64,000 nt of DNA from Bacteroidota bacterium (GTDB lineage Bacteria; Bacteroidota; Ignavibacteria; Ignavibacteriales; Melioribacteraceae). The translations under genes and the position numbers were made by a program. Under the pieces are notes generated by a model. It was given only the letters and a program-made list of their open reading frames with translations, ran no database searches and had not been told where the DNA came from. The DNA is taken from NCBI GenBank assembly GCA_018829205.1, contig JAHJUE010000006.1:248001-312000 (forward strand), in the 5' to 3' direction. Of the stretch, positions 36,169 through 61,779 are shown one piece after another (position 1 is the first letter of the stretch; each line of letters begins with the position of its first letter).

Positions 36169-36227
36169 AACAGCTCCTAAGAGAATAAAGAACATTCTGA
36201 TTAATGGTTAAAAAATATTGTTAAATT

Positions 36228-39163: not shown

Positions 39164-40000
39164 TTATTTCTTATTTAAGGCTGTTACTTTAAGATTATTG
39201 TACTCTCCGATTAATGGCGCCATCTGCCTAAAACCGATTTTTCCTCCGACGAGAACCGGTCCATATTTTTCGCCGTCATCAAACCATTCGAATATTTGGA
39301 GATCGTTTATATATAGTTCTACTGTGGGTCCGTACTTTACAACTCTAATATTATAGGGAGGCTTCGCAAATTCTACACATGGTATAGGGTCGGGACCTTG
39401 AATAACCATGTTATGTCCGTAACTTTTACGTAAATTACAAAGTTGAAAATCTCTTATTTTTTTATTTCTTCTGAAATAGGAAACATGTAGTGCGTTTATA
39501 TCTCCATGATGATATTGTTTGTAATCACCACTTCGTTTATTTAAGGAAGCAGAGAATAAGTCTTCTCCGTTTTTCCCTTTTGCCGAAAAGAAAAGGATAC
39601 ATAAACCGGGTTCTTTTATTGGATAAAAATCCCAGCTGATTGCGACATTATCAGGGAAATCCTCAGGGCACCAGTAAACAAGATTTGCTTTTTGTTTTAG
39701 AGAAGCATCGAGCGAATTTTCTATTCTTAATCTGTCGTTCGGGAAAGAAATATCGGCAACACCTTCCAGGACAAAACCTTCGACATCAGATTGACTGCTT
39801 AATGAATTTTCATAAATTGTTTTCACTTCGTCATATTTTTTATAAAAGACTTTTTCAATCAAAACGTCTTTTTTACTACCCTCTTCATCGTTTGAAAATT
39901 TTAATCCCGAAGCAAATCCTAATCTGCTCATTCCTGCAGCACCAGCGATTAGTGCTGCGGATTTCATCCAATTTCTTCTATTAAACTTGTTGTCGAACAT
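39164..40000 (-). CDS. DUF1961 (YesU-like) protein with Tat-like signal
   Basis: A 278-residue exported protein. The N-terminus NRRNWMKSAALIAGAAG resembles a twin-arginine signal. The mature part is a concanavalin/LamG-like sandwich with DUF1961 marks: LVYWCPEDFPDNVAISWDFYP, LCILFFSAKG, ALHVSYFRRN, and LYINDLQIFEWFDDG with GGKIGFRQM. YesU of the Bacillus rhamnogalacturonan cluster belongs to this family, whose activity is not established to my knowledge. Here too it sits directly beside the GH105 gene (13 bases), which supports a role with unsaturated rhamnogalacturonan oligosaccharides. AGGAG precedes the ATG. Confidence 0.85.
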   Translation of the reverse strand: MFDNKFNRRNWMKSAALIAGAAGMSRLGFASGLKFSNDEEGSKKDVLIEKVFYKKYDEVKTIYENSLSSQSDVEGFVLEGVADISFPNDRLRIENSLDASLKQKANLVYWCPEDFPDNVAISWDFYPIKEPGLCILFFSAKGKNGEDLFSASLNKRSGDYKQYHHGDINALHVSYFRRNKKIRDFQLCNLRKSYGHNMVIQGPDPIPCVEFAKPPYNIRVVKYGPTVELYINDLQIFEWFDDGEKYGPVLVGGKIGFRQMAPLIGEYNNLKVTALNKK

Positions 40001-42953: not shown

Positions 42954-43079
42954 TTTACACCTTAATATTTTGATTATTGAATACTTGCTTTCAAAAAAAA
43001 CACTTCCCTTTTAAGTACATCAAGATCTAGTTAAGCTTGGGAAACAACAATTATTATAGCGCAAATATCGCCGCATTGT

Positions 43080-45948: not shown

Positions 45949-45980
45949 TGAATAACCTTTTGATATAAATAAATATTGTA

Positions 45981-47582
45981 TCATTTAGTATTGACACCAA
46001 ACGTTACATCATCAACAAAATTATTAATTTTTATATGTGCATCATTTAAACTAATTCTAGATTTTCCGTTAATTTTAAAATTTATGAATTGAACGCCTGA
46101 GATTTTATGTTCATTATTCAAGCCTGACATTGTCGATTCCTTAGGCCAAAAGCCTGCGGCAGTACAATTTTTAATGATTACATTCTTAATTTGTCCGGCT
46201 TTTTTCACATAACTCTTAGCATCGCTAATACTTCTGAAGTTAACATCAAAATCAAGTAATCTTTGTCTGTTGTCCTCAAACAACTTTTCAAAATGATTGT
46301 TTATGTAAAAAATGTTTTCAAATGTTGCCCCGTCTCTTGAATAAAGAGACATCCCTCTGTCTGACTCAACTATTTCATTGTTTTCAAAAGTAACATTTGA
46401 GATATTTCTTCTTGTTTCCGTACCGAGTTTCATTGCTGATTTTTTGGTCAGGAAAACACAGTTCTTTACAACAATATTATGGGAATCTTGCAGCAAATTG
46501 GAATTGCCTGACGTTTTAATGGCGATATTATCATCGCTGCAGTACATAAAACAGTTATCAACGGTTACATTTGTTGCTCCGTCAGGATCAATACCGTCTG
46601 TATTATAAACCTTTCGGTCGTTTATCATTTTAATATCCCGGAAAGCAACATTATCTGAAGCAAGTATATGTGTATTCCATGCAGCCGGGTCACGCAGCAT
46701 TATTCCCTCAACAACTACATTTTTAGAATCCCTAACGCGGATTAAGTTAGCAGGTTTACCCTGCTGACGAACAATGGCGCCCTGTCCGTCGATTATTCCT
46801 CTTCCCCATATTTTCACATTTTCCGCCTCGCCAATTAATATCAGGCGGCTATATGTCATCTTCCAGCCTTTATTAGTATAGTTTTCAGGATCATTTACCT
46901 GATCTGCTTCCTGAAACCCTTCATCCTGAGGGTAATCTTTTCTATCCGTTGAACCGAGAATTACTGCACCGGGGGCAAGGTAAATTTGAGAGTTTGTCTT
47001 TAATTCCAAAGTTCCGGTCAAATAAACTCCAGCAGGGAAATAAAGTATTTTTCTCTCAACGGCTGTTTCATTGATTGCATTCTGAATTTTTAAAGTTTCA
47101 ATTTGCTTTCCTTGCACATCAACTAGATAGTTATTAATACTTACAACTTTGTTATCCACAGTGTCCGGAGTTTCATTCAAAATTTGGTTTGCAAAAATAA
47201 ACAGTCTTTCAAGCTCATTTACATATACAACAAGTTTTTTGGGTACTTTTAATTTCAGTTTGATTTCGTTTCCTTCACATTCAGATTCAATTTTGTAACG
47301 AACCGGACTAATTGAGTAGGACTTAACCTTATTAGGTAAGGTTATTTTTATTTCGGTTTCACCTTTCATCCCGAAGTTTGTATAATGTATATCTTTATAA
47401 TGCTCAACAAACACATCACTGCCGTTAACATTAATATCGAAGACTTCACTTTTTTCAGCTTTGTACAGAACCGGATATTTTTCAATATAATTTTCATATG
47501 AGCCGTAGAATACCAAACTGATTATTATCACCGGTAAAAGGGATAAAACAATTCCTTGAGTTATTTTTGAACGAGTTTTCAT
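45981..47582 (-). CDS. GH28-like beta-helix hydrolase with N-terminal membrane anchor
   Basis: A 533-residue protein. I start at the ATG at 47582; the open frame runs further upstream but into the preceding gene. A single hydrophobic segment (about 7-27) may anchor it or act as an uncleaved signal. A beta-sandwich domain (about 45-130) precedes the right-handed helix. The catalytic Asp set is N-T-D329-G and S-D350-D351 (CSDDNIAIK), as in GH28. The G-H-G His loop of polygalacturonases is replaced by KKSAMKLG, and the RIK motif is absent. The N-terminal sandwich recalls GH49-type enzymes. It may be an exo-acting uronidase or rhamnosidase-type hydrolase. Confidence 0.75.
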   Translation of the reverse strand: MKTRSKITQGIVLSLLPVIIISLVFYGSYENYIEKYPVLYKAEKSEVFDINVNGSDVFVEHYKDIHYTNFGMKGETEIKITLPNKVKSYSISPVRYKIESECEGNEIKLKLKVPKKLVVYVNELERLFIFANQILNETPDTVDNKVVSINNYLVDVQGKQIETLKIQNAINETAVERKILYFPAGVYLTGTLELKTNSQIYLAPGAVILGSTDRKDYPQDEGFQEADQVNDPENYTNKGWKMTYSRLILIGEAENVKIWGRGIIDGQGAIVRQQGKPANLIRVRDSKNVVVEGIMLRDPAAWNTHILASDNVAFRDIKMINDRKVYNTDGIDPDGATNVTVDNCFMYCSDDNIAIKTSGNSNLLQDSHNIVVKNCVFLTKKSAMKLGTETRRNISNVTFENNEIVESDRGMSLYSRDGATFENIFYINNHFEKLFEDNRQRLLDFDVNFRSISDAKSYVKKAGQIKNVIIKNCTAAGFWPKESTMSGLNNEHKISGVQFINFKINGKSRISLNDAHIKINNFVDDVTFGVNTK

Positions 47583-47589
47583 AATCAAC

Positions 47590-49638
47590 CTATTTTTCCG
47601 TCCAACCCGGCAAAGAGACAGTTGCCTGGTAATTTGAATAATTGTATAAATCATTTCTTACAGGCTTATAAAGGTCCCCTTTTTTAGGATTATCGCTCTG
47701 TGTATACACCCAAATTTCGTATGGATCCCAAACAACGATTTCATCTCTTGCATCTCCGTAAATATCTAACACTGCATTGCATAAATAAGGATGTCCGTCG
47801 CCGGGGAAAGTCATTACTCTTCTGCCTTTGCCATCGTAAACTCCACCTTCATCTACATCCGGAGATAACACAAAATATTCAACACCGTTGCCTGTCCAAT
47901 TCAAAGGTAGCATCATACTTCCTTGCTGCACGGGTTCAATCTGATTATAGATATTCCCTTCGGAATCGTAGAAAGTTATTATTCCCTGGTTGCCGTGAAA
48001 ATTAACTGATACCGTTTCCAGCCCAGGTAAATCTTCCCTGAAATTTGCTACAGAGGGATTCTGTACATGACCTACGTAATGATGCTGAGATATATTACCA
48101 TTAAGATCGGTTCTAAAATATCCTTCATCGCTTGCCGCATACATCATTTGGAGTCCTTTTTGTTTGTTAGGGTTAAAATCCACTATCGCTACTCCATCAG
48201 CATGTTGCTCTATCCCTTCAAGACTCCAAAGTTTTTTCCCATCGTTATCGTATAACGAATAGTCAATAGCCAGTTCATCTTTGCCGTCATTGTCAATATC
48301 AAATGCATAGGGATAATGTCCTGTATTTGTTTGGGCCTCCCAAATTAGTTCTAGATTGTTATTGTAAATCCAGAAGTGATTATATCTATTCTTTATTAGT
48401 ATATCGCCGTCAAATCCATTTCCACTTATATCACAAAAGAACAGACAATCACCTAAAATATTTTGTCCTTCTTTTCCATCAATTATATCATGGGGAGTAT
48501 CAATTTCGTTTATTTTTTCCCCGGTTGCGCCATCAACTACAATCAGTTTTCGATTCATACAATAAACAACTTCAGTCTTTCCATTATTGTCTATATCATG
48601 TATCTGAAACGGAACATCTGTGGTCTGGAAAAATTTAAAAAGGTCCGGCTTTCCAATCTGCCAAAGCCTTTTACCATCGAATGTCATAGCGGTTAAGCAT
48701 GAAAGCTCATTATTATCCCCTCTAGGACCGTAGCTCATTATTTGTCCCATCAAAACATCAATCTGACCATCATTATTGAGATCGCCAAAACGGAGATTAC
48801 GGCCTACACCGAAACCGGGAGTTTCTATCTTTTTCCATAATACCATTTCGGGATTGCTATTCTGAAGCCTACGTTCCTCTTTTTTTCTTAATTTTCTTTT
48901 TTCCACATATTTTGAATAAGCTTCCTCAGTAGTTGTAACTAATACAGATTCATACTTAGTAGGGATATCCGACATTAAACCAATTTTACCTGAAGGATAG
49001 TTAGAATCTTCAGCGTTCAACGTTGGTCCGTCCATTATAGAAGCAGTTATTTTATCGCCCTTTACACTTACGTTAAGAGTTATATATGTTCCTGTTTCAT
49101 AAATGTAACTTTTTTCATCCAGTATTTTTTCGTAAGGTTTGTGGAATGCGGTTGCATTCTTTACCATTTTTAATATTGCTTTATCATTATTAATACCGAA
49201 AAAATAATAGCATCGATCGTTCTGATATCTGAACAATATACCGCTTTGTTTTTCCGTCGATTCGGGCTGCATTGAAACGGTTAACGTATAGTCAGTCCAA
49301 AGTGAATCACCTGTGATTATCGTTGGGTGAGTAAAATTCTCGGGATTATTATAGGTCTGAACTAAAATCTTTTTCTTGTTCTCTTTATATATCCACCATG
49401 CTCTTTGGCTTCCAACAGCTTCATTCTGAGCAGAAACCGACCAACCGAATTTTGATGCTGCCTCTTGAACAAAATGATATTCAGCATATGCTTTAACAAA
49501 GCTGGACACCATTCTGACTGGAAATTTTTTAAAGTTTTCCTTTAATAAAAATTTCTCTTCGCTATTATTATCTTGAGCATAAGACACACAAGTAATCATT
49601 ACAAGTAATAGAAAGAACAATTTCCCATCAAATTTCAT
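47590..49638 (-). CDS. LamG plus FG-GAP propeller protein 1 (PL11-like, unassigned)
   Basis: A 682-residue secreted protein (signal peptide 1-21, ends SYAQ). Residues about 28-240 form a concanavalin-like domain (SGILFRYQNDRCYYFFGI; KIGLMSDIPTKY). A short charged linker leads to a propeller (265-680) with Ca2+-binding FG-GAP-like repeats: GDLNNDGQIDVLMGQ, DIDNNGKTEVVYC, DIDNDGKDELAID, and HADGVAIVDFNP. The tail has DIYGDARDEIVVWDPYEIWVYTQ and YNYSNYQAT. The blade order and the H-A-D-G and late R-D-E-V motifs resemble PL11 rhamnogalacturonan lyases (HGDAxHVxD; GDWREEV), but similarity is distant. It is probably a polysaccharide lyase or pectin-binding protein. It has two paralogs in this locus. 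Confidence 0.65.
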   Translation of the reverse strand: MKFDGKLFFLLLVMITCVSYAQDNNSEEKFLLKENFKKFPVRMVSSFVKAYAEYHFVQEAASKFGWSVSAQNEAVGSQRAWWIYKENKKKILVQTYNNPENFTHPTIITGDSLWTDYTLTVSMQPESTEKQSGILFRYQNDRCYYFFGINNDKAILKMVKNATAFHKPYEKILDEKSYIYETGTYITLNVSVKGDKITASIMDGPTLNAEDSNYPSGKIGLMSDIPTKYESVLVTTTEEAYSKYVEKRKLRKKEERRLQNSNPEMVLWKKIETPGFGVGRNLRFGDLNNDGQIDVLMGQIMSYGPRGDNNELSCLTAMTFDGKRLWQIGKPDLFKFFQTTDVPFQIHDIDNNGKTEVVYCMNRKLIVVDGATGEKINEIDTPHDIIDGKEGQNILGDCLFFCDISGNGFDGDILIKNRYNHFWIYNNNLELIWEAQTNTGHYPYAFDIDNDGKDELAIDYSLYDNDGKKLWSLEGIEQHADGVAIVDFNPNKQKGLQMMYAASDEGYFRTDLNGNISQHHYVGHVQNPSVANFREDLPGLETVSVNFHGNQGIITFYDSEGNIYNQIEPVQQGSMMLPLNWTGNGVEYFVLSPDVDEGGVYDGKGRRVMTFPGDGHPYLCNAVLDIYGDARDEIVVWDPYEIWVYTQSDNPKKGDLYKPVRNDLYNYSNYQATVSLPGWTEK

Positions 49639-49711
49639 TTTACTCTCCCATTGCGCTTATTTATAATTAGCACTTTAAATTCCTTAAGAATGTACCTTGA
49701 CGCATCACCAA

Positions 49712-51772
49712 TCATTTTGTCCAGCCCGGTGATGAGAAAGTTGCCTGGTAATTCGAATAATTGTATAATTCATTCCTTGTAGGTTTATAGAGCTTACCCG
49801 TTTTAGGATTGTCATCTTGAGTATAAACCCAAATTTCATAAGGGTCCCAAACAACTACTTCATCTCGGGAATCACCTGTTATATCGAGCGTAGCATTGCA
49901 CATTACAGGATGTCCGTCCCCTGGAAAAGCAACCACACGTCTTCCCCAGCCGTCATATATTCCGCCTTCCATAACATCCGGAGATAGTACAAAGTATTCT
50001 TCACCGTCTCCTTTCCAATTTAGAGGCAGCATCATACTTCCATGCTGGACAGGTTCAAATTGTTTATAAATATTTCCCTCACTGTCGAAATAAGTGACAA
50101 TACCCTGATTACCATGAAAGTTTATCGATACAGTTTCTAATCCTGGAAGATCATCTCTATAATTTGCACTAGAAGGGTTTTGTACGTGGCCGATGAAATG
50201 ATGCTTTAATATATCACCTTGCAAATTGAGCATAAGAGCTCCTTCATCACTTCCTGCCCAAAATATTTTTGGTTCGCTATCTATGCCTGGATTAAAATTT
50301 AGAATTGCTATACCATCTGCATGCTGTTTTAATTCGTTATGGCTCCAAAGTTTGGTGCCGTCGTCATCATACATAGCGTAACCGATCGCGAGTTCATCTT
50401 TGCGGTCATTATCTATATCATATGCAAAAGGATAATGCCCGATTTGATTATCTTTTGTACCGGTAACTTCCCAAACAACATCAAGCTGATCATTCAAAAC
50501 CCAAAAGTTTGTTTGTCGATCTTTAATAACTATGTCACTGTCATATCCCTTCCCTGAGAGATCACAAAAGAAAAGGCAGTCGCCCAAAATATTTTCGTAA
50601 CGCGTTGCAGGAGGTTTAGCTAATGGTGTTGGTTTTTTGTATTTGGTTTTTCCGGTCGCACCGTCTGCTACAATTATTTCGGAGGATTTACAATATATAA
50701 CTTCATTTTTCCCATCATTATCTATATCGTGTATTTGAAAAGGAAGGTCGGTTGTAAGAAAATATTTAATTATATCCGGTTTACCAATTTGCCACAACTC
50801 TTCACCATCAAAGGTCATAGCTGTAAGACAATAAAGTTCGTTATAATCCCCTTTCGGTCCGTGGTTTTCCACTTGACCAATTAATACATCTATTTGACCG
50901 TCGTTGTTCAAATCACCGAAGCGGAGATTTCTTCCGACGCCAAATCCGGGCGTTTCAATTTTCTTCCATAATTTTAACTTAGGATTTGCGGCTTGTAAAC
51001 GGAGTTCTTCTTCATCTCGTAGTTTTTCTTGCTTAGTAATCTTTTCATATTCATCTTTAGAGGTAGTAACCAGCACGGAATAAAATTTTGTAGGAACATC
51101 GGACATTAATCCGATTTTCCCTTTGGGAAAGTTTTCATCCGTAGCTTTTAACTCAGGTCCATTTTCAAACGAAGCAGTAATATCTGAACCATTAACATGT
51201 ACAACAGCAGTAAGAATTTCACCAGGAGGTGCTTTGTAATCTTTCTCGGCTAAAATTTTAACTGTAGATTTTCTGAATGCATAACCGTGTTTTGCCATCT
51301 TCAACACAGCTTTGTTTCCTTCAACCCCGAAGAAATAAAAACATCTATCGTTTTCATATCTAAATAGAATACCGCTTTGCTTTTCGGTAGATGATGGTTT
51401 GAACTTAACTGTGAGAGTATAGTCAGTCCATAATGGGTCACCAGCAATAACAATTGGATGAGTATAATCATCCGGGTTATCAAAAGTTTGAGCCATCAGA
51501 TTTTGGCCGCCCTCGTTAAATATCCACCATGCACGCTGACTGCCGACCGCACCTTCGTGAGTTGAGGAAACCCAGTTTCCTTTAGGTGCAACTTCCGGTA
51601 AATAGTGATATTCGGCAAAAGCTTTTACGAAAGCCGAAAACATCCCTACTCTCTGGCTGCTAAAATCGTCTTGCAATAAAATTGCTTCATCCAAATTAAC
51701 TTTACTGCCAAACAATAGAATTGGGGTATAAAGAATTAATGTGAACAGAATTTTTTTATTTATAATCTTCAT
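49712..51772 (-). CDS. LamG plus FG-GAP propeller protein 2 (PL11-like, unassigned)
   Basis: A 686-residue secreted paralog of the protein encoded just downstream, similar along the whole length. The signal peptide covers about 1-22. The concanavalin-like domain (30-245) contains SGILFRYENDRCFYFFGV. The propeller contains FGVGRNLRFGDLNNDGQIDVLIG, DIDNDGKNEVIYC, DIDNDRKDELAIGYAMYDDDG, HADGIAILNFNPG, GNQGIVTYFDSEG and SRDEVVVWDPYEIW. Every motif conserved between the two is also present in the third copy at 59719-61779, apart from substitutions in the fourth blade. That points to selection on a shared active or binding site. It lies between GH28 polygalacturonase and its own paralog. Confidence 0.65.
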   Translation of the reverse strand: MKIINKKILFTLILYTPILLFGSKVNLDEAILLQDDFSSQRVGMFSAFVKAFAEYHYLPEVAPKGNWVSSTHEGAVGSQRAWWIFNEGGQNLMAQTFDNPDDYTHPIVIAGDPLWTDYTLTVKFKPSSTEKQSGILFRYENDRCFYFFGVEGNKAVLKMAKHGYAFRKSTVKILAEKDYKAPPGEILTAVVHVNGSDITASFENGPELKATDENFPKGKIGLMSDVPTKFYSVLVTTSKDEYEKITKQEKLRDEEELRLQAANPKLKLWKKIETPGFGVGRNLRFGDLNNDGQIDVLIGQVENHGPKGDYNELYCLTAMTFDGEELWQIGKPDIIKYFLTTDLPFQIHDIDNDGKNEVIYCKSSEIIVADGATGKTKYKKPTPLAKPPATRYENILGDCLFFCDLSGKGYDSDIVIKDRQTNFWVLNDQLDVVWEVTGTKDNQIGHYPFAYDIDNDRKDELAIGYAMYDDDGTKLWSHNELKQHADGIAILNFNPGIDSEPKIFWAGSDEGALMLNLQGDILKHHFIGHVQNPSSANYRDDLPGLETVSINFHGNQGIVTYFDSEGNIYKQFEPVQHGSMMLPLNWKGDGEEYFVLSPDVMEGGIYDGWGRRVVAFPGDGHPVMCNATLDITGDSRDEVVVWDPYEIWVYTQDDNPKTGKLYKPTRNELYNYSNYQATFSSPGWTK

Positions 51773-51787
51773 CTGATTTCCCTATTA

Positions 51788-53404
51788 TTATTTAATAATT
51801 GCTCCAGCAGGTAAATCATCAACTTCTTTTACAACTTCTTTAACATGAATTAAGTTGTTACTTCCGATTACTATATCTTTTGTATCGGTGCCGCCGACTT
51901 TTAGAAATTGTTCTGTCCCCGGCAGAGGATTGCAGTTATAGATATATGAATTAATTACATTCTCTAGTTCGATTAAAGGAACTCCAGATAACGGCTTTAA
52001 AGTTTTGATTCCTTCCAATTCAAGATTTTCGACTATAGCTGCTTTAACGACCGGACCTTTTTCAACATCAATAGTAATGTTGTGAAGTTCAATATTTTTT
52101 GATCTTTCAATTTCAAATCCGGTTTTTGCAGACATGTTGATATCGTTAAAAGTAACGTTATCAATCCATCTCTCTTCTAACCCGATAAGCGCAACAGCTC
52201 TGTTTACTTCCGTTGCAGTAATATTGCTGAAATGAATGTTTCTGAATTGAGGAGTTCTTTCGGATAAAGGTTCTTCTTCCGATTTCTTGTATTTCATATT
52301 AAGCTTTATCGCCTCTAGACGGATATCTTTCATCACTATATTATCAACTCGTATTTCTTCTACTATTCCGCCTCTTCCTCTCATTGTTTTAATTCTTATT
52401 CCTCTATCAGTGCCATCAAAAACGCAATTGGATATTGTTACTTTTCTAACATCGCCCGACATCTCGCTTCCGATAACTACACCGCCGTGCCCAGAAAGCA
52501 TAGTGCAGTTTGTAATTGTTATATTTTGACACGCTTTACCCCAATCTCTCCCGTCTCTGTCTCTTCCTGATTTAATTGTAATACAGTCATCACCAACACT
52601 AATATGGCAGTCTGAAATATGAACATAACTGCATGAGGTTGGGTTAATACCATCAGTATTCGGCGAATCCGGTGGATTAGTAATAGTAATACCTGTTATA
52701 GTTACATTTTCGCAGAAGGCCGGGTTGATAGTCCAGAAAGGGGGATTTTGGATGGAGACACCTTCAATTAATATATTTTTAGATTCAAAAGCCTGGAACA
52801 TCGGCGGTCTTAAAAAGTGACCGCTCTGCCATTGATCAGTATCAGGCGCCTTTACATCTTTATTCAAATCTTTGTGCATCTGCTGGTACTTTGTCCAAGG
52901 AACCTCTTTACCATTTTTTGAAGCATCTCTAACAATGTTATTATAATCCCACCATTTTTTACCTTGTCCTTCTATCAAACCTCTACCGCGAATAGCAATA
53001 TTTTCAACACGATATGCATATAACTGCGGTGAAAAATTCATTCCTACAGTCCCTTCCCAGCGATATTTAATCATAGGCAGGTAATCATCGTAGTCATCGG
53101 TAAACTTTAAAATTGAGCCTGCTTCAAGATAAATTGTAATATTACTCTTGAAGTGAATAGGACCTGTTAGGTATTCACCCGCCGGGAAATAAATAGTACC
53201 GCCACCGGCTTCCGAGGCGTCATCAATTGCTTTTTTTATAAGATCGGTAACTTTTTCTTTACCTGTATTATCTGCTTTATAATCCAGTATATTTAAGAAA
53301 GTACTGCTGCTGTTGTTTGTTTTAGATTGAGCATGCGAAGGACCTGCAGTAATTAAGAGAATTATAATGATGAGTAAATTAAAAATCTTATTAATCTTGA
53401 ACAT
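51788..53404 (-). CDS. GH28 polygalacturonase
   Basis: A 538-residue secreted enzyme (signal peptide 1-26, ends SHAQ). It is a right-handed beta-helix with the full GH28 set: N249-T-D251-G, G-D272-D273-C, G-H306-G and R337-I-K339. This set defines active polygalacturonases that hydrolyse alpha-1,4-galacturonan, here probably exo-acting or acting on short or rhamnogalacturonan-linked chains because of the long insertion with YQQMHKDLNKDV near 173-184. AAGGAG lies before the ATG. It is the best preserved hydrolase in the locus and follows the DUF4861 gene closely. Confidence 0.95.
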   Translation of the reverse strand: MFKINKIFNLLIIIILLITAGPSHAQSKTNNSSSTFLNILDYKADNTGKEKVTDLIKKAIDDASEAGGGTIYFPAGEYLTGPIHFKSNITIYLEAGSILKFTDDYDDYLPMIKYRWEGTVGMNFSPQLYAYRVENIAIRGRGLIEGQGKKWWDYNNIVRDASKNGKEVPWTKYQQMHKDLNKDVKAPDTDQWQSGHFLRPPMFQAFESKNILIEGVSIQNPPFWTINPAFCENVTITGITITNPPDSPNTDGINPTSCSYVHISDCHISVGDDCITIKSGRDRDGRDWGKACQNITITNCTMLSGHGGVVIGSEMSGDVRKVTISNCVFDGTDRGIRIKTMRGRGGIVEEIRVDNIVMKDIRLEAIKLNMKYKKSEEEPLSERTPQFRNIHFSNITATEVNRAVALIGLEERWIDNVTFNDINMSAKTGFEIERSKNIELHNITIDVEKGPVVKAAIVENLELEGIKTLKPLSGVPLIELENVINSYIYNCNPLPGTEQFLKVGGTDTKDIVIGSNNLIHVKEVVKEVDDLPAGAIIK

Positions 53405-53469
53405 GTATGGTCTCCTTAAAATGAAGTTGTAAATTTTTGTCTGTCACTAAATTCAAAAGTGTTTTACTT

Positions 53470-54717
53470 TTATTTCAACAAAATCAATTTTATTATAACG
53501 GGTTCGCCTATTTCATCAGATACATTGAGCAGATAATTTGCCCACTGTTTCGGGGAAGTAACACCGCCATCCTTTTCCCAAGCGCCTGCAAAACCGTATT
53601 TTAGTTCAAGTGTACCTTTGGGAAATAGGAAGCCGTAGTTCGGACCGTTATTGGGAATATCTATTAACGTAGTATCATTTTTGATATAAATTTCTTCTGT
53701 ATCATATTTATTTGTTATTACTATTCCTCTCGCAATAAGATGATTTAGAATACCTGCTTCATAAACATCTTGAGCAATTGCCATCATATATTCCGGCTTT
53801 TTTTTATATACGAAGTCCTCATAAATTTGTCTCATACCGGCACCGAAACGTATATCCCTTTTATTCCCGGGGTACTTAGTCATTTTCAATTCAACTGTGG
53901 TATATCTTTTTAGGGAAGCGATCGAATAAACAATTTCAAATTCGTATGTGCCGAGATCTGTTCGCCAATCTGTTACTTTTGTTTTTACTATTGCGCGTAA
54001 CGGGCCGTCTGCTAAAATTTTCGAATCATATTTAGCATCTCTCTCAATTTTCTTTGAAATTGAGTAAGCGTTAGTTGTCCAAGGTCGTGCAATATTTCCG
54101 TTTGCCTCTTGAATAAAAATAGAATGGAGCGACATTGTATTTGCTGTCAGAAGAAAATCATGTCCGAATTCTGCAGAAAAGGTATGCTGTGGATGTTTTA
54201 CTTCACCATAGAAATAATCGAGAGATAATCTCGGAATTGTTTTTCCGATCACGTCAATTTGTGTAGCACCGTAAGTGAGATAAGTCATAATTTCCGATTC
54301 CCACAAAGGTTTATATACTGTCCATGGATCGCGGGGACGGTCATCTATAACTGCATTTACCCTCTTCAAAAATTTATTTGCTTTATTTTTGTCTTCACCA
54401 AAATTTATTTCAACATCAATAATTTGTTTACTTTCAAAATCGATTTGAAAGAATAATTCATCCCATTTTCCATTTTTATCCAGATCATCCAGCTGAAAAG
54501 GTATTTCCCAAGTATTTTTATCCTTCACCGTGGTTATTGAAATAACGGATTTTCCCTCAGGGATATTTAATTCTGTCCTGTTTATCACAACAGGTGCGTC
54601 CGGGAATGGATTCTTTAATGAATTTTCAACTGTTACAATGGCTTTATTCTGCGCGACGGCATCATTTAAGAAGGACATTAAAAATATTGTTATTAGAAGT
54701 AATATTTTATTTTGCAT
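53470..54717 (-). CDS. DUF4861-family secreted protein
   Basis: A 415-residue exported protein (signal peptide 1-22, ends AVAQ). The beta-rich sequence carries DUF4861 marks: PFQLDDLDKNGKWDELFFQIDF, RPRDPWTVYKPLWESE, GYTLTYGATQ-like (here MTYLTYGATQIDVIGK), and NYGFLFPKG. The family occurs next to GH105 and pectin genes in many Bacteroidota but has no established activity to my knowledge. The fold looks like the galactose-mutarotase/lyase beta-sandwich class. Its place between a phosphatase and a polygalacturonase supports action on uronic-acid oligosaccharides. AGGTAAATT precedes the ATG. Confidence 0.8.
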   Translation of the reverse strand: MQNKILLLITIFLMSFLNDAVAQNKAIVTVENSLKNPFPDAPVVINRTELNIPEGKSVISITTVKDKNTWEIPFQLDDLDKNGKWDELFFQIDFESKQIIDVEINFGEDKNKANKFLKRVNAVIDDRPRDPWTVYKPLWESEIMTYLTYGATQIDVIGKTIPRLSLDYFYGEVKHPQHTFSAEFGHDFLLTANTMSLHSIFIQEANGNIARPWTTNAYSISKKIERDAKYDSKILADGPLRAIVKTKVTDWRTDLGTYEFEIVYSIASLKRYTTVELKMTKYPGNKRDIRFGAGMRQIYEDFVYKKKPEYMMAIAQDVYEAGILNHLIARGIVITNKYDTEEIYIKNDTTLIDIPNNGPNYGFLFPKGTLELKYGFAGAWEKDGGVTSPKQWANYLLNVSDEIGEPVIIKLILLK

Positions 54718-54724
54718 AATTTAC

Positions 54725-55939
54725 CTACTCTTTTATTAATTCAAATGAATCAAATAATTCACCTGTTGCAGTGTATGATTTATAGTCAAGTAAATTCCCG
54801 TCAACGGATATTACCTGAAATAATTGCAGACCATTTCCGGTCTTTACCATAAGGTTTTTATATTTATCATTCAGAGAATAAACCTTGGGACCGCTTACTG
54901 AAACAACATAAACGGTTCCTTTTTCATTGTTACCGACTATCTGTCCGTTTTTAAGCTTATAAGTTCGTCCGTAAGCATGATCGTGTCCTTGCAGCACCAG
55001 GTCAACTCCATAATTATCATACAGAGGAAGAAGCTTTTCTTGATACTCCCTGCTATCTCTATTTTTACCTGTTGAATACAAAGGCTGATGAATTGATACT
55101 ATAGTCCATTTACACTTATTGTTTTCAAGCTTTTCCTCTAGCCATGGAAGCTGTGCATTTAAATCTTCACTGCCGTTTAAAACAATAAACCGGACATCCT
55201 GATAATCGAAATAATAATTTGTCTCCAATAAATCATCCACGCCATTTGCAGGAAGCGTAAAATGGGGTCGCCAAAGAGGAGTAAGGATTTTTCTCTTATT
55301 ATCTTCAACCGGATAATATATTAACCCTCTGTATTCATGATTTCCGGCAGCTGGCATAAGAGGAGTCATCCGGGTAATAAAACCTGCAGCATAAAAGAAT
55401 TCGCCCCACAACTCATCACGGGAAGGATCTGTTATTAAGTCGCCGGCTATGAGCCAGAATGCTGCTTGGGGTGCCTCCGAATAAGCCGCTCGGAAAATTC
55501 TCGATACAAACGACTTTAGATAATTTTGCGGATCTCCAAAATAAATAAATCGGAAAGGAGAAGGTTTGTTTGATGCAGTTTTAAATTGGCTCCACTCACT
55601 CCATACCGAATCGTGACCAACTTTATAAGTATATAGCGTTTGGGGATTCAAATCGGTCAATGTTGATGAATAATGGTAAACGATATCACCGGTGTTTAGG
55701 AGAACTTCCTCAATTTTTACCGGAAAGGATTTTACATTATCAACAAAGCTTGTGTCAGCAGTAGCTTCAGCAACACTTACTTCAGAGTTTATATACATAT
55801 CCACCGTTCTCCAAGTAACTGAAATACTTTCTGCCGGCTTTTCAGTTAAATTCAAAACTATTCTTTGGGGTGTCCCTTCTTCCTGACCGAAAGCAGAAGA
55901 AAATGTTATTAATATTATATAAAGAAAAAACTTCATCAT
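54725..55939 (-). CDS. purple-acid-phosphatase-like metallophosphoesterase
   Basis: A 404-residue secreted enzyme (signal peptide 1-18). Residues 22-122 form the N-terminal FN3-like domain of purple acid phosphatases. The catalytic domain has all dinuclear metal motifs: FGD136 in YFGDPQ, AGD167, G-N200-H201-E, H284 in SIHQP and G-H319-D-H321. The extra Tyr of Fe(III) purple enzymes is replaced by Pro-Gln-Asn-Tyr (Tyr140), at a plausible distance. It removes phosphate from esters outside the cell or in the periplasm. A phosphatase in a pectin locus is unusual, because known pectins are not phosphorylated. It may scavenge phosphate or act on a modified oligosaccharide. Spacing of seven bases to the next gene implies one transcript. 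Confidence 0.88.
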   Translation of the reverse strand: MMKFFLYIILITFSSAFGQEEGTPQRIVLNLTEKPAESISVTWRTVDMYINSEVSVAEATADTSFVDNVKSFPVKIEEVLLNTGDIVYHYSSTLTDLNPQTLYTYKVGHDSVWSEWSQFKTASNKPSPFRFIYFGDPQNYLKSFVSRIFRAAYSEAPQAAFWLIAGDLITDPSRDELWGEFFYAAGFITRMTPLMPAAGNHEYRGLIYYPVEDNKRKILTPLWRPHFTLPANGVDDLLETNYYFDYQDVRFIVLNGSEDLNAQLPWLEEKLENNKCKWTIVSIHQPLYSTGKNRDSREYQEKLLPLYDNYGVDLVLQGHDHAYGRTYKLKNGQIVGNNEKGTVYVVSVSGPKVYSLNDKYKNLMVKTGNGLQLFQVISVDGNLLDYKSYTATGELFDSFELIKE

Positions 55940-55948
55940 TTTTTCAAC

Positions 55949-57265
55949 CTATAATAACTTAGAAAGATCAACTACAAATAGTTGACGCTTTCCTTCATGA
56001 GAGGCTTGCAAGCTGACCTTTTTGTAATCTCTACTCCATGCCGGATGCCCGTCAAGACGAAAAACATTATCATCGCCTAGATCACGCCAATTGACAGTTG
56101 GCAAAGTACAGACTACTTCCTCTTTCTCAGCCTTTAAATCAATGAGCCTGAGAAATACAAACTCATTTTTTCCTTCTTTAAATTCATCGTCGGTAATAAT
56201 GTATCTACCGCTAGGCTCAATACTGGGATGTCCTGTAGCTTTAATTTTATCTGAGAGTATTAAAAATTCAGAACCGTCATATTTGAACATCACGAACCTC
56301 TCGGTTCCCCCAATATCGAGATGCCTAATTAAATATTCTCCGTTTGGATGCCAGTTTGGATGACCCCCGCCGCTACCCCATACCGGGTAATCAGGTGTTG
56401 TATAAAATATTTCTGAACCGTCAGGTTTAAAAGTTATATTAACCGGATTACGTTGTTTCTGATTACCGTTCATTATACAGCGCAGTACTTGGTAAATTCT
56501 TGTGCCCTGCTTATTATACTTGCTATGCCAGAAATAGAAAGTATAATCATCTGTTGGTGGATTTTCAGGGAGTACTGCAGCCGCATCATAAAGGCTTACA
56601 ATTAATTCTTTTTTGTTTGTCCTCAGATCGGTTTTCCAAATACCTTCGGTTTTTGATGCTCCTTTCGGCAGCTGTTTGTAATTACCTAATTTTACAGGAG
56701 GGCAGCCGTAACCAAGCTGTGTATAATCAAAAAGTTCGAGGGGAAAACTAACAACATGTGATTCATCCGGAGCAATGGTATACATTGGACCGACAAAAGC
56801 TTTTGTTTCACCAGTTTCAATATTTATTCTTACGGCAACAGCTTGACCGTTAATAACGTCATTGCAGTAAACATGCTCATCTGTAGCACCCCATTGAACA
56901 TTTGTTCCTGTTTGAAACCCCCAGCATGTTGTTTTATAGAGTGACAGATAAGTTTCTTCTTCCAGATCAATAATTATAACTTCTGCATGATCGCCTTGAA
57001 TAGGCATATGATCTTGAAATGGAAGTTTTGACACAGCCATATATCTTTGAGATGGACTAAACGGAGTAACATCAAAATAAGTATGATTATACAAACCATC
57101 ATCGGGTGTAACCTTTAATACCGGAGCCAGAAACTTATCGTCTTTTATCCTTAAAAACTTCATCTGTTTCTTTTGAGGTTTAGGTGTTGAGATATTCCAA
57201 ACACCGGGAACAACGGCTAAAGCAATAAAACCCGCACTAGTCCTAAGAAAATCTTTCCGCTTCAT
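55949..57265 (-). CDS. PL22-like beta-propeller with Tat-like signal, copy A
   Basis: A 438-residue exported propeller. I start at the ATG at 57265 with GGAG in front. The N-terminus MKRKDFLRTSAGF is a variant twin-arginine signal. All three His-bearing regions of oligogalacturonate lyases have a counterpart: GGHPNWHPNG, TGHPSIEPSG and LDGHPAWSRD. In the last, only the second His of HPHP is kept. Blade motifs GFQTGTNVQWG and NDVINGQAVAVRI match the other propellers here. It is therefore one of the two most lyase-like members of the set. Probable role: cleavage of short oligo-uronides. It is a clear paralog of the next gene upstream. Confidence 0.75.
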   Translation of the reverse strand: MKRKDFLRTSAGFIALAVVPGVWNISTPKPQKKQMKFLRIKDDKFLAPVLKVTPDDGLYNHTYFDVTPFSPSQRYMAVSKLPFQDHMPIQGDHAEVIIIDLEEETYLSLYKTTCWGFQTGTNVQWGATDEHVYCNDVINGQAVAVRINIETGETKAFVGPMYTIAPDESHVVSFPLELFDYTQLGYGCPPVKLGNYKQLPKGASKTEGIWKTDLRTNKKELIVSLYDAAAVLPENPPTDDYTFYFWHSKYNKQGTRIYQVLRCIMNGNQKQRNPVNITFKPDGSEIFYTTPDYPVWGSGGGHPNWHPNGEYLIRHLDIGGTERFVMFKYDGSEFLILSDKIKATGHPSIEPSGRYIITDDEFKEGKNEFVFLRLIDLKAEKEEVVCTLPTVNWRDLGDDNVFRLDGHPAWSRDYKKVSLQASHEGKRQLFVVDLSKLL

Positions 57266-57284
57266 AATTTCTCCGTTTATTAAA

Positions 57285-58616
57285 TCAGATTTTATTTGAT
57301 AAATCGACAACAAATAGCTGTCTTGCGCCTTCGGGAGCAGCCTGAATGCATACCTTTTTATAATCACGGCTCCAGACCGGGTGACCGTCTAGCCTAAACA
57401 CATTATCATCGTGTCTTTCCGCCCAATTTATTGACGGAAGCTCACATATAATTTCTTCTTCATCGGCAATAAGATCTACCAGATGAAGCTGCGTAAATTT
57501 TCCGTTTCCCTTTTGAGGGTTCGAATCGGTTATTAAATATTTTTCTCTTTCTTCAATCGTAGGATGTCCGCCTGCTTTAACATTTTTGCAAAGCTGTTTG
57601 AAATCTGAGCCGTCATACTTGAACGTTGCGAAATAGTTTTCACCATCTTCAAATTTCAATACTCGCACCATGTAATCTCCATTAGGCAGCCAATTGGGGT
57701 GACCGCCTCCATTTCCCCAAATTGGTCTAAAATCCGGGAGACAGAAATTGATATTTGAACCGTCTGAATCAAAAGATATTGTTAAAGGATTTCTATCAGT
57801 TCCCTCATGATTAAAATCGGGGAAAATGCAACGGAGAACCTGGCAGACTCTTGTGCCTTGTCTATTGAATTTTGAGTGCCAGAAATAATAAGTATAACCG
57901 GGTACCGGAGGTTCCTCAGGTACTACCGCAGCGGCATCGGCTAGAGTTACAAGCAATTTTTTTGTATTTGTTTTAAGATCGGTTCGCCAAATGCCCTCAT
58001 CATCCGCAGCCCCGGGAGGAAGTGTCTTAATCTTAGAATAATCTTTAGGCGGCGTTCCAAGTCCTAATTGTGTAGCGCTCCATAATTCCTGAGGGAAACT
58101 GATAACGCAACTGTCATCGGGAGCTACATGATACATTGGGCCAATAAAAGCTTTTACCTCTTTAGTTTGAATATCTACACGAACGCATACCGTTTCATCG
58201 TTAATCGAATCATTTAAATAAAGGTATCTATCGGTTCCTCCCCAGTTTACATTTGCAGCTGTCTGAAAACCCCAGCTTTTCGTGCTGTAAACAGTTTCAA
58301 TAGTTTCCTTTTCCATATCAATAACACAAATATCCGCTGTGTCGCCATATACAGGGAGTTTATGTTGAAATGGAACTTTAGTTACTACAAAATATTTTTG
58401 TGATGGACTCCATGGACAAACATCATAATAAGTATGCAGATAGTATCCGTCATCCGGGGTTATCTTCATAATTGGCACCAATGATTTTTTATCTTTATAA
58501 GGAGTAAAAGAAAATTTCTTTTCTCCCATCTGAGGAACATTAATTGAGAAGATCCCGGGCATTAACGCCAACGCCGAAAATCCGGCTGATGTTCTTAAAA
58601 ATACTCTTCTTTTCAT
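57285..58616 (-). CDS. PL22-like beta-propeller with Tat signal, copy B
   Basis: A 443-residue exported propeller with a true twin-arginine signal (MKRRVFLRTSAGFSALALMPG). It resembles its neighbour copy A along the full length. The His motifs are GGHPNWLPNG, GGHPTIEERE and LDGHPVWSRD, so the putative base and two metal His are present as in copy A. A C-terminal run, RQLFVVDLSNKI, closes the propeller. AAGGTTAC precedes the ATG. Tat export is interesting because a metal-loaded enzyme would fold in the cytoplasm. Together with copy A and the pectin methylesterase upstream it looks like a module for processing de-esterified oligogalacturonate. Confidence 0.75.
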   Translation of the reverse strand: MKRRVFLRTSAGFSALALMPGIFSINVPQMGEKKFSFTPYKDKKSLVPIMKITPDDGYYLHTYYDVCPWSPSQKYFVVTKVPFQHKLPVYGDTADICVIDMEKETIETVYSTKSWGFQTAANVNWGGTDRYLYLNDSINDETVCVRVDIQTKEVKAFIGPMYHVAPDDSCVISFPQELWSATQLGLGTPPKDYSKIKTLPPGAADDEGIWRTDLKTNTKKLLVTLADAAAVVPEEPPVPGYTYYFWHSKFNRQGTRVCQVLRCIFPDFNHEGTDRNPLTISFDSDGSNINFCLPDFRPIWGNGGGHPNWLPNGDYMVRVLKFEDGENYFATFKYDGSDFKQLCKNVKAGGHPTIEEREKYLITDSNPQKGNGKFTQLHLVDLIADEEEIICELPSINWAERHDDNVFRLDGHPVWSRDYKKVCIQAAPEGARQLFVVDLSNKI

Positions 58617-58646
58617 ATGTAACCTTTATAGTTTACTTAATTGGCA

Positions 58647-59729
58647 TTAGTTGTAATGCAAGAGCAAATTATTATCCTTAATAAATTTTTCGGGATCCCA
58701 TTTCCCGCCAAAAATATTAATTGGCGTTAAGGATGAAGGATCTAACTTAAGGTTATCATTCATCCACGAATAATTGCCTTCGTCTCTTGAACAGTTGTAA
58801 TAAAAAATTCTATGCCCCCAGAAAACATCTGGCTTTGCTTGATAAATGTTTTTGTCGGCTATGTTAGAACCGAAAGTTGAATTCAATATTATTATTTGAG
58901 CATCGTGTGTATATCTTCCGAGTTTAAAATCATCAACACCTTCAAATCGCGAATTATTAATAACAAATTTGTTATTTGTTGAATTACTACCATCATGCCA
59001 AAGTGTAGCGCTACCACCTTTTGTGAAAAATTTTGAGTCTGTTATATAACAATCTCCTCTCGGGCAGACATAGTCTGTATAACCTTCGAAGTAAGTATCT
59101 TTTATATAATACATTCCCGTTTCTTTATTCCAAGGGCAGAAGGTATCGGCACCAGCAGCAATAATATTGCAATTAAGTACGATTAATCTTGTAGCATTCC
59201 CTTTAAGAAGAAAAGTATATTGATGGCCATTTGGTTTTACTCTTCCTTCATAATTTTCGATGTTGCATTCGAGTTCGGGGAGAGGTTTATCGTAATAGAG
59301 ATCACCGTAATTATTTTTGATTGTCATATTCATTATTATGCAGTCATTCCCGGTAACATTTACTACCGCAGGCAAAGGATCGGAAGGATCATTTTTACAT
59401 TGCCAAACCCATTTCTGTTCGGCATAAATAATTTTTGTGTTTTCTCTACTTTCACCCATTAAAAGAACAAAATCTTTATCAATTAAAATTTTTTCTTTGT
59501 ACAAGCCATTTTTTATCAGAATAATAAACAAGGAAGAATTATCCTCCGGAACAGAAGCAAGTGCATTTTTAATAGTTGAATAATCACCACTGCCGTCCTT
59601 TGCAACAATGATATCAGGCGTTAATGTTTCTGAAGTACTTCCCTCAGTTTCTGCATAACCTCTAACAGAATTAGCCATTAACATTGTACAGATAAGTGAA
59701 AGCAATATGATTTTGGGTTTATTTTTCAT
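58647..59729 (-). CDS. pectin methylesterase (CE8)
   Basis: A 360-residue secreted beta-helix enzyme. The start is the ATG at 59729, which overlaps the end of the upstream gene by 11 bases; the frame is open further upstream only by chance. A signal peptide covers 1-24. CE8 marks are IIVAKDGSGDYSTIKNALASVP at the mature start, FLLKGNATRL, YIKDTYFEGYTDYVCPRGDCY (the family's Asp in GxxDF) and LGRYTHDAQ, where plant and Dickeya enzymes have LGRPW. The second Asp region is divergent. It removes methyl groups from pectin so that lyases and polygalacturonases can attack it. Tight coupling to the LamG-propeller gene suggests joint action. Confidence 0.88.
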   Translation of the reverse strand: MKNKPKIILLSLICTMLMANSVRGYAETEGSTSETLTPDIIVAKDGSGDYSTIKNALASVPEDNSSLFIILIKNGLYKEKILIDKDFVLLMGESRENTKIIYAEQKWVWQCKNDPSDPLPAVVNVTGNDCIIMNMTIKNNYGDLYYDKPLPELECNIENYEGRVKPNGHQYTFLLKGNATRLIVLNCNIIAAGADTFCPWNKETGMYYIKDTYFEGYTDYVCPRGDCYITDSKFFTKGGSATLWHDGSNSTNNKFVINNSRFEGVDDFKLGRYTHDAQIIILNSTFGSNIADKNIYQAKPDVFWGHRIFYYNCSRDEGNYSWMNDNLKLDPSSLTPINIFGGKWDPEKFIKDNNLLLHYN

Positions 59730-61779
59730 CCGAATATCCGGGCAATGATACAGCCGTTGAATAATTAGAAAAATTATAAAGCGGATCTCTCCTTGGCTTG
59801 TAAATTCTTCCTTTCTTTGGATTATCATCTTGAGTGTAAATCCATATTTCCTGTGTATCCCAAACAACTACTTCATCTCTGCAATCCCCCGTCATATCAA
59901 GCACAGCGTAACACATATCGGGATGCCCATCAGGTGGAAACATTACAACTATTCTACCCCAGCCGTCTATCATTCCACCATAATTTGGATCGGATGAGAG
60001 AACACAAAATTCTTCTTCATTTCCTGTCCAATTAATTGGGCGCATCGGACTTCCTTGCTGAAATGGTTCGAATTCCTTATAAATTTCCATATCAGAATTG
60101 AACATATGTACGATACCCTGATTACCCCAGAAGTTAACGGTAACAGCTTCAAGTCCGGGTATATCATTTCTAAGATTTGCTACTGCAGGGTTCTGCACGT
60201 GACCGATATACTCATGTTTTAAAATATTTCCTTTCATATCATAAAAAACAATTCCTTCATCGCTGGCAGCATTCATAATAACATATGGAAGGTCTTCTCT
60301 AAATTTAATTATCGATACTCCATCTGCGTGATCTTTTATTTTATTTTCGAGCGTAAACAACTGTTTTCCATCGTCATCATAAAGAGAATAACCGATTGCA
60401 ATTTCATCCTTACCGTCTTCATCGTAATCCCATACGTAAGGATAGTGCCCGGTATTACAAGCACTTTTCCAAAGCAGTTCAAGCTTATCATTGTATATGT
60501 AAAAATGTTCATATCGATCTTTAAGAAGTATATCTTGTGGTTCATTTAATCCCCTCACGTTGCAAATAGAAATTGCATCTCCAAGAATTCTTGGAGTTAA
60601 ATTCCTGGGAGGAGATGATTCGTTTATAGGAGTTTGGATTTTATATTTTGTTTCACCTGTTGCTCCATCAGCAACTCTTAGTTCCATATCTTTACAATAG
60701 ATAACTTCATTCCGTCCATCTTGATCAATATCATAAATTTGAAAAGCGACGTCGGAAGTGACCTTATCGCTCCATAAATCTGCTCTACCTACTTGCCACA
60801 ACTCTTTTCCATCAACTGTTAATGCAGTTAAACATCCAACTTCACTATTTCTATCTTTTGGTCCATGGTTTAGTACCTGTCCGATGAGAATATCCATCTG
60901 TCCGTCCATATCAAGATCACCGAACCTTAAACTTCTTGGAGCACCAAAACCTTCGGTATTAAATTTTTTCCAAAGCACCGGTTTAGGGTTTTCAGCCCTA
61001 AGTTTATTGACTTCATCATCATACTTTTTTCTTTCAACAGAATATTCATCGAATGAATTATCATCTGTTGTTACCTTTACGCTGTAATATTTTGTTGGGA
61101 CGTCAGACATTAAACCAATCTTACCTTTTTGAAATTCATCTTCATTGGCTTCGAGAGTAACACCCTTTATTTCTCCCTTAATATGACTTCCATTCACGGT
61201 AATTTCTGCTTTTAATTTTTCACCAGCTTTATAATCAATTTCTTTTTCGGCAAGAATAGTTTGGTTCGAAGTTCTATAAGAATCAGCATTTTTTACTTTC
61301 TTTATAATTGCTTTTCCATTAATAACTCCAAAGAAATAATAACAGCGATCATTTTGATACCTAAACATTAAGCCGCTCTGTTCCTCAACACTTTCGGGCA
61401 TAAATTCAACTTCAGCGGTATAATCTTTCCATAGTTCATCGCCGGCAATAATCATCGGATGTGTATATTTTACTTCCCTTTCGGTTGAGGCATAGGTCTG
61501 ATGCATAATATGCTTATCTTCTTCAACAATTATTCGCCAAGCTCTTTGTGAGGGGTCACTGCGGAAAGATGAGACAATCCAATTCCCTTTTGGCTGAGTT
61601 GCTGATATGTTATGGTATTCGGATAATGCGCCGACAACATCGCCGGAAATCATCTGCGGTTTCAGTTCACTGAAGTCGTCATATAATATTACTTTTTCAC
61701 CGCCGCTGCATCCTGAAGAGAGGAGTATTATAAAAATAATAATTGCTTTTCTTATGAAGAGATGAATTCTCTGTATCAT
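59719..61779 (-). CDS. LamG plus FG-GAP propeller lipoprotein 3 (PL11-like, unassigned)
   Basis: A 686-residue paralog of the two proteins encoded at 47590-51772. Unlike them it has a lipobox (LLSSGC near residue 24), so it is lipid-anchored. The concanavalin-like domain (about 30-250) has SGLMFRYQNDRCYYFFGV. The propeller has RSLRFGDLDMDGQMDILIGQ, DIDQDGRNEVIYC, DEDGKDEIAIGYSLYDDDG, HADGVSIIKF, FWGNQGIVHMF and CRDEVVVWDTQEIWIYTQ. The shared H-A-D-G and R-D-E-V-V-V-W-D motifs mark the conserved face. Function is inferred from distant PL11 likeness and from the company of CE8, PL1 and GH28 genes. The CE8 start codon lies inside its last codons. Confidence 0.65.
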   Translation of the reverse strand: MIQRIHLFIRKAIIIFIILLSSGCSGGEKVILYDDFSELKPQMISGDVVGALSEYHNISATQPKGNWIVSSFRSDPSQRAWRIIVEEDKHIMHQTYASTEREVKYTHPMIIAGDELWKDYTAEVEFMPESVEEQSGLMFRYQNDRCYYFFGVINGKAIIKKVKNADSYRTSNQTILAEKEIDYKAGEKLKAEITVNGSHIKGEIKGVTLEANEDEFQKGKIGLMSDVPTKYYSVKVTTDDNSFDEYSVERKKYDDEVNKLRAENPKPVLWKKFNTEGFGAPRSLRFGDLDMDGQMDILIGQVLNHGPKDRNSEVGCLTALTVDGKELWQVGRADLWSDKVTSDVAFQIYDIDQDGRNEVIYCKDMELRVADGATGETKYKIQTPINESSPPRNLTPRILGDAISICNVRGLNEPQDILLKDRYEHFYIYNDKLELLWKSACNTGHYPYVWDYDEDGKDEIAIGYSLYDDDGKQLFTLENKIKDHADGVSIIKFREDLPYVIMNAASDEGIVFYDMKGNILKHEYIGHVQNPAVANLRNDIPGLEAVTVNFWGNQGIVHMFNSDMEIYKEFEPFQQGSPMRPINWTGNEEEFCVLSSDPNYGGMIDGWGRIVVMFPPDGHPDMCYAVLDMTGDCRDEVVVWDTQEIWIYTQDDNPKKGRIYKPRRDPLYNFSNYSTAVSLPGYSDEK

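Follow-up and report, generated by a model that had tools for sequence, protein, structure and literature searches.

Three PL11-like propeller proteins with CBM66-like modules, candidate lyases, in a pectin gene cluster of a Bacteroidota bacterium

A 64,000-nucleotide stretch of a Bacteroidota genome (Melioribacteraceae; GenBank assembly GCA_018829205.1, contig JAHJUE010000006.1, positions 248,001 to 312,000, forward strand), hereafter the window, carries three paralogous genes, LFG1, LFG2 and LFG3, each encoding a concanavalin-like domain followed by a β-propeller. An earlier note, made from the sequence alone, had proposed three open reading frames (ORFs) of 682-686 residues with this composition. 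All three were confirmed, on the minus strand, and the two domains are borne out by Pfam FG-GAP_3 matches in LFG1, LFG2 and LFG3 (39.8, 45.8 and 46.4 bits) and by a CBM66-like sandwich fold.

47590..49638, minus strand: LFG1, 682 residues; CBM66-like N-domain and PL11-like FG-GAP propeller; hydrophobic N-terminus taken as a signal peptide
49712..51772, minus strand: LFG2, 686 residues; architecture as LFG1; reference for residue numbers
59719..61779, minus strand: LFG3, 686 residues; architecture as LFG1; candidate lipoprotein Cys
48850..49563, minus strand: LFG1 N-domain
50981..51694, minus strand: LFG2 N-domain, residues 27-264; CBM66-like concanavalin sandwich and linking helix
60985..61704, minus strand: LFG3 N-domain
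49715..50980, minus strand: LFG2 propeller, residues 265-686

LFG1 shares 62% and LFG3 52% identity with LFG2, and no other gene in the 4.59 Mb window genome matches at E ≤0.01. Their concanavalin-type Pfam matches at the N-terminus are all sub-cut-off, and NCBIfam yields no meaningful match. The D-x-(N/D)-x-D-G repeats described earlier and the motifs HADG and RDE(V/I)VVWD occur in every copy; strict D-x-[DN]-x-D-G loops number two each in LFG1 and LFG2 and three in LFG3. Judging from the hydrophobic N-termini, the proteins are probably exported; an SSGC in LFG3, recognized by eye within an imperfect lipobox, is a possible lipoprotein Cys.

Homology between the LFG propeller and the catalytic propeller of PL11, though remote, is well supported. 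An AlphaFold2 model of LFG2 built from 14 aligned sequences has a predicted local distance difference test (pLDDT) score of 86.4 and a predicted template-modelling score of 0.84. Foldseek comparison of the whole model with the Protein Data Bank (PDB) places four PL11 entries on top (2z8r, 2zux, 2zuy and 4cag; E between 6e-17 and 5e-14); Bap1 ranks next, at E 1e-9. A 14-row family profile likewise ranks YesW (1.9e-12), B. licheniformis PL11 (2.4e-12) and YesX (8.9e-12) first in the PDB, with Bap1 at E 9.6e-5. PL11 structures (YesW 2z8r, YesX 2zuy and B. licheniformis 4cag) share the FG-GAP propeller with LFG and are its best PDB matches by Foldseek and by profile. One true PL11 query reaches three LFG genes directly in tblastn (loci L104, L105 and L111; E 1e-7 to 2e-10). 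HADG coincides with HGD, the Ca2+ motif of PL11, and near the C-terminus GD-x-RDE coincides with GDWREE, giving a shared GD-x-R-[DE]-E motif and substantiating the suggested likeness of motifs. Seven-bladed propellers of GH145, PL42, PL24 and PL25 were not noticed among the best 50 matches each of Foldseek and VIA-align.

The LFG proteins are PL11-like, not PL11, and form a diverged branch within an established superfamily. The Pfam RGL11_C model matches LFG1, LFG2 and LFG3 over partial stretches at 35.5, 31.1 and 37 bits (cut-off 27), none of them full-length, versus 508.7 bits for B. finegoldii PL11 (hmmscan). A survey of 395 phylum genomes, scoring at most three candidates per genome, detected RGL11_C in 23 at E ≤1e-5; true PL11 proteins account for 26 near-full-length matches of 630-838 bits, and the remainder consists of one partial match (66.2 bits) and single stretches of ~26 bits in the window genome and one relative. 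PF18370, the N-terminal β domain of rhamnogalacturonan I (RG-I) lyases, scores 59.1 bits in B. finegoldii PL11 and is not listed in LFG1-3 at E ≤10, a range in which HMMER filters drop most matches above 0.1; LFG carries a CBM66-like N-domain instead. In a midpoint-rooted tree of 69 propellers (27 PL11, 32 LFG and 10 propeller-only), the PL11 rows form a separate group with support 100/100 on a branch of 2.74, and the LFG group has support 90/58. The earlier description of LFG as atypical of PL11 holds. That LFG proteins are ordinary PL11 enzymes, divergent RG-I lyases with substrate and mechanism unchanged, would fit the RGL11_C cut-off being reached in LFG1-3 and the Arg found at the PL11 position in 12 of 32 LFG; set against the RGL11_C scores, the missing PF18370 match and the separate PL11 group, this is highly improbable. 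The earlier interpretation was largely right and its lyase idea is plausible, but since RGL11_C reaches its cut-off in LFG1-3, the PL11 relation is not new.

Within the tree, LFG3 belongs to a separate older lineage as sister of L006:6218-8281. The program warns of long branches (L093, L087, L019 and L095/L097 meeting PL11), whose joins are possibly false. PL11 rows were limited to 520 residues before alignment, which shortened a few, and the fusion part of L011 and an N-terminal extension of L082 were trimmed. The latter (in a 955-residue ORF) lacks a Pfam match, recurs on the same gene in L111 and is probably an over-extended start. The sets of 32 and 10 omit fragments, weaker or one-domain matches (L020-L024, L040, L094, L096, L098, L099, L101 and L102), as well as duplicates of genes already included.

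Passages of PMC8787155 on Bo3128 and Bo4416, PL11 enzymes modelled on YesW, assign the Ca2+ ligands to His, His, Asp and Glu, place an Arg and a Lys at the substrate carboxylate and describe stacking by a Tyr; for Bo3128, they name His376, His412, Asp414, Glu435, Arg467, Lys549 and Tyr610. The resulting spacing of 36 and 2 for His376/His412/Asp414 agrees with the aligned PL11 rows. Both HMMER and a joint MAFFT alignment place H446, H484 and D486 of LFG2 on the PL11 His, His and Asp. The corresponding codons, each checked, are:

50435..50437, minus strand: H446 (GHYP), aligned with the first Ca2+-ligand His of PL11
50315..50323, minus strand: H484-A-D486 (HADG), aligned with the PL11 Ca2+-ligand His and Asp (HGD)
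50177..50179, minus strand: N532, aligned with the substrate-carboxylate Arg of PL11

H446, H484 and D486 are kept in 30, 30 and 31 of 32 LFG sequences (window copies counted), in 8, 8 and 10 of 10 propeller-only relatives, and each in 27/27 PL11 rows. H446 and H484 are the only propeller His conserved in both the LFG and propeller-only groups. Four members lack both His (L012, L089, L095 and L097), and none of the 42 sequences lacks just one; Fisher p for joint loss is 8.9e-6, uncorrected for kinship, with L095 and L097 being sisters. Conservation of the His/His/Asp set across several phyla, together with loss of the His only jointly, suggests a chemical site. Counts of the pattern H-x(34,41)-H-x-D (30/32 LFG, 7/10 propeller-only, 27/27 PL11) were set aside as evidence, as ~27% of shuffled LFG sequences match and some matches are misplaced.

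We infer catalysis and lean, by a modest margin over an even chance, towards LFG proteins being metal-dependent PL11-like lyases for pectic uronides, equipped with a CBM66-like module. The N-terminal sandwich would probably anchor the protein on polysaccharide. A divalent metal, probably Ca2+, would sit at one propeller face, held by H446, H484, D486 and an acidic residue at 509/510, as the alignment predicts. As proposed for PL11, the metal may help to neutralise the uronate carboxylate, leading to β-elimination, and the 4,5-unsaturated product could then be processed by enzymes of the cluster, namely GH105 and PL22.

Several results weigh against this reading. The Foldseek PL11 alignments cover both LFG2 domains with a query TM-score of 0.43-0.45 and a root-mean-square deviation of 22-23 Å, a poor overall superposition. 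For the predicted LFG2 model, VIA-align does not separate PL11 from Bap1 or BamB: the Z scores are 25.1 for Bap1 (362 aligned, 3.4 Å), 24.5 for BamB (307, 3.4 Å) and 24.1 for YesX (396, 3.8 Å, 20% identity). No PL11 entry emerged when the PDB was searched with a single sequence. Comparing LFG with PL11, hhalign gives E 1e-22 yet puts neither H446 nor H484 on a PL11 His, whereas the hhalign run with the propeller-only group recovers the His register; because both His were misplaced, residue matching did not draw on the LFG-PL11 hhalign. In the joint alignment, the column of the PL11 Glu, the fourth ligand, is a gap in 32/32 LFG, with acidic residues at 509/510 of LFG2 near the expected ligand position. 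At position 532, where PL11 has Arg in 25/27 rows (two rows have no residue there), LFG1-3 have Asn; across the LFG set the residue is N in 14/32 and R in 12/32, and it is His in 6/10 propeller-only relatives. The PL11 Lys (25/27) corresponds to position 622, a Pro in 28/32 LFG, window copies included. The PL11 stacking Tyr has an ambiguous counterpart in the LFG alignment. The literature yielded no activity data for any LFG family member. Judged from these alignments, the metal site at H446/H484/D486 is likely kept and the two substrate-gripping residues are not. H621 (23/32), R281 (30/32), R284 (32/32) and Y675 (26/32) are conserved in LFG and might compensate for the replaced contacts.

Gene context at a distance adds to these counterpoints. 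A set of 25 pectin-type reference proteins served as tblastn queries against the flanks of distant members (27 stretches, mostly planctomycete). Seven of 27 gave any match, and in three of them (L104, L105 and L111) the PL11 reference had hit the LFG gene itself. True pectin-type neighbours occur in 4/27 flanks, two of them weak, and in 0/10 controls, drawn from five genomes; many target contigs are short. The clear cases are L106 (PL10 and PL1-like) and L124 (PL11, RG acetylesterase and GH43), the weak ones L113 (GH29, 23%) and L129 (PL22, 22%). In the flanks examined, the wider LFG family is mostly not pectin-linked. L124 carries a propeller-only gene (9899-11317), with the RG acetylesterase and GH43 matches near it, and a true PL11 (13267-15015; 37% identity, E 1e-100) ~2 kb away; the propeller-only relative is therefore no replacement for PL11 there. 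An earlier ORF-based flank comparison was discarded: it did not list the family gene itself in L107, L115, L118 and L125, as longer spurious ORFs can hide genes in GC-rich stretches.

The main rival is a binding-only role, in which the Ca2+/sugar face of the propeller and the CBM66-like domain capture pectin fragments at the cell surface and no bond is cut. FG-GAP propellers are often binding scaffolds. Replacement of the PL11 Arg and Lys, the equal closeness of Bap1 by VIA-align Z, the persistence of a site-less form in L012, L089, L095 and L097, and the possible lipoprotein Cys picked out by eye in LFG3 all fit such a role. Retention of His/His/Asp in 30, 30 and 31 of 32 LFG from several phyla, with the His lost only jointly, speaks against it, as does the L011 relative, a single 1101-residue protein with a C-terminal catalytic PL10 domain (306 bits), although such a fusion is compatible with binding too. 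Overall, a binding-only role is unlikely, yet it deserves serious weight.

Alternatively, the proteins may be enzymes other than lyases, with the metal site serving another reaction such as hydrolysis or ester removal. This accords with loss of the two PL11 carboxylate contacts, Arg and Lys, and at some distant LFG loci there are SGNH hydrolases, sulfatases and unassigned β-helix proteins. A passage of PMC8377490 on GH145 and PL42 offers a precedent, as these related β-propellers differ in chemistry. The neighbours in the window group and the PL10 fusion instead indicate uronide breakdown, and a non-lyase reaction appears improbable.

If LFG proteins are PL11-like lyases, as we favour, replacement of both the Arg and Lys contacts means that they probably differ from classical PL11 in substrate or cleavage site; a variant of RG-I, the boundary of RG-I and homogalacturonan, or a decorated (e.g., sulfated) pectic uronide is most likely. 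The earlier suggestion of a step on rhamnogalacturonan or a related polymer draws support from the PL10 fusion and the RG-I/pectin setting of some relatives, and is weakened by the unkept Arg and Lys and the pectin-type neighbours in just 4/27 distant flanks. The window and Melioribacter both hold two old paralogue lineages together, LFG3 and LFG1/2, suggesting two specificities that complement each other. A further, doubtful but possible extension is that LFG constitutes a new polysaccharide lyase family in the PL11 superfamily, with the same metal core, a carboxylate site re-tuned by Asn, Arg or His where PL11 has a fixed Arg, and the CBM66-like module. It would be the missing lyase of pectin (perhaps sulfated) loci in Melioribacter-type bacteria and Planctomycetota, with some members acting as metal-free binders.

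Should the family prove active, the pectin-cleaving propeller enzymes would gain a new branch, with H446, H484 and D486 as predicted metal binders and position 532 possibly setting substrate choice. The His-less members (L012:2924-5002, L089:1489-3501, L095:1450-2889 and L097:1318-2784) would then serve as natural negative controls, or may themselves be binding-only forms. Activity could also explain how rhamnogalacturonan-type pectin is handled in the window genome, where RGL11_C matches only the LFG genes and no canonical PL11 is seen, PF19501 (PL26) has no match, and the PL4 model PF14686 has seven matches, none above cut-off. LFG1-3 themselves have no match to the Pfam PcRGLX model.

Folded alone, LFG2 residues 27-264 form a β-sandwich (pLDDT 85.7). 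This model matches CBM66 of B. subtilis levanase (4b1m, 4azz) with Z 19.0 over 152 aligned residues at 2.1 Å, tying with the C-terminal domain of galactocerebrosidase, which Foldseek ranks first. In the PDB, the top match to a profile built from 14 N-domains is CBM66 (E 4.7e-8); fold and sequence similarity are shared, at ~13% identity. CBM66 binds terminal fructosides. PF06439, the 3-keto-disaccharide hydrolase domain, matches 9/14 N-domains at E ≤0.01 (best 2.6e-7), yet the LFG2 N-domain scores 21.7 bits, below the 26.8 cut-off. Toxin receptor-binding domains appear among the sandwich neighbours in the fold lists. L022:1477-3228 (plus strand, 583 residues), from a genome of the same family, combines an LFG-N-like domain (residues 99-210, E 2.6e-6) with a phosphoesterase (residues 290-583) that is 28% identical (E 6e-26) to the purple-acid-phosphatase-like protein at window 54725-55939. 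The CBM66-like module therefore seems to recur in that phosphoesterase type.

LFG1-3 lie within a minus-strand gene run, 32218-63810, that also holds two GH28, PL10, GH105/88, CE8, DUF4861, purple-acid-phosphatase-like, two sulfatase, DUF1961 and PL22 genes. The principal neighbours are:

40014..41384, minus strand: GH105/88 unsaturated uronyl hydrolase (PF07470; Pfam)
44548..45984, minus strand: PL10 pectate lyase (PF09492; Pfam), family also fused to LFG in L011
45981..47654, minus strand: second GH28 (PF00295), adjoining LFG1; start probably over-extended
51788..53404, minus strand: GH28 (PF00295; Pfam), adjoining LFG2
58647..59867, minus strand: CE8 pectin methylesterase (PF01095), adjoining LFG3; start probably over-extended
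61795..63810, minus strand: PelZ-like pectate lyase with a type IX secretion system sorting tail, adjoining LFG3; under model cut-off

Pfam thus upholds CE8, PL10, both GH28 and GH105/88 among the neighbours listed in the earlier note. The supposed PL1 gene at 61795-63810 has no Pfam PL1 match and reaches the NCBIfam PelZ pectate lyase model at E 2.4e-35, with 122 bits against a cut-off of 840. Two sulfatases and a radical-SAM/SPASM protein, a possible sulfatase maturase, lie at 32218-33543 and 41499-44501; these genes possibly reflect a sulfated pectic substrate. Three proteins at 34873-36195, 55949-57367 and 57285-58616 are related (24-56% identity) and have no Pfam match; they are a candidate unassigned family within the pectin cluster. 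Those at 36228-37556 and 37777-39135 are mutually 69% identical, the latter with a weak sub-cut-off Pfam PL22 match. A common "PL22-like" label for all five was rejected, as they fall into two BLAST groups and none matches the PL22 protein at 33610. The DUF1961 protein at 39164-40000 (303 bits) has a counterpart at L042:13083-13868 (300 bits), in a Paenibacillus PL26/GH105/propeller locus, and is a candidate pectin-related protein. The DUF4861 protein at 53470-54717 (119.6 bits) is weakly related to the BT3233 family; no literature joining DUF4861 with pectin was found.

A search of genome contigs recovered 11 loci, ten with full-length relatives; the match in L016 spans just 36 residues. The ten comprise Melioribacter, three Planctomycetota (one Planctomycetaceae), three Bacteroidota/Bacteroidetes/Bacteroidales, one Gemmatimonadales, one Glassbacteria and one other bacterium. 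Among the genomes of relatives, 2/97 have a match at E ≤1e-20, the window genome being one. The family profile matches 8/395 phylum genomes at E ≤1e-15 (window genome counted, several by one domain, at most two candidates scored per genome), and 26/294 genomes around a planctomycete match at E ≤1e-20 (centre counted, some by the propeller alone). No LFG relative turned up in the viral contigs scanned. No description of the LFG family was found in the open-access literature.

Pectin-type context is evident in L006 (GH28, GH127 and GH29), L009 (GH105/88 and GH35) and L106 (PL10 and PL1-like). In Melioribacter L006, a GH28 70% identical to 51788..53404 lies between the two LFG genes. A relative of window 55949-57367 (56% identical) adjoins LFG in L007; as a pectin link, this locus was dropped. 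The propeller-only proteins of Halomontanus (L041:14962-16251) and Paenibacillus (L042:14881-16221) are LFG profile homologues (hhalign E 3.1e-84) that differ from LFG in having no N-domain. The former lies beside a rhamnogalacturonan acetylesterase and GH43, the latter beside a PL26-type PcRGLX, DUF1961 and GH105/88. β-Lactamase and DUF5060 proteins occur near LFG genes in two genomes (L010:7022-9793 and L106:15392-18325).

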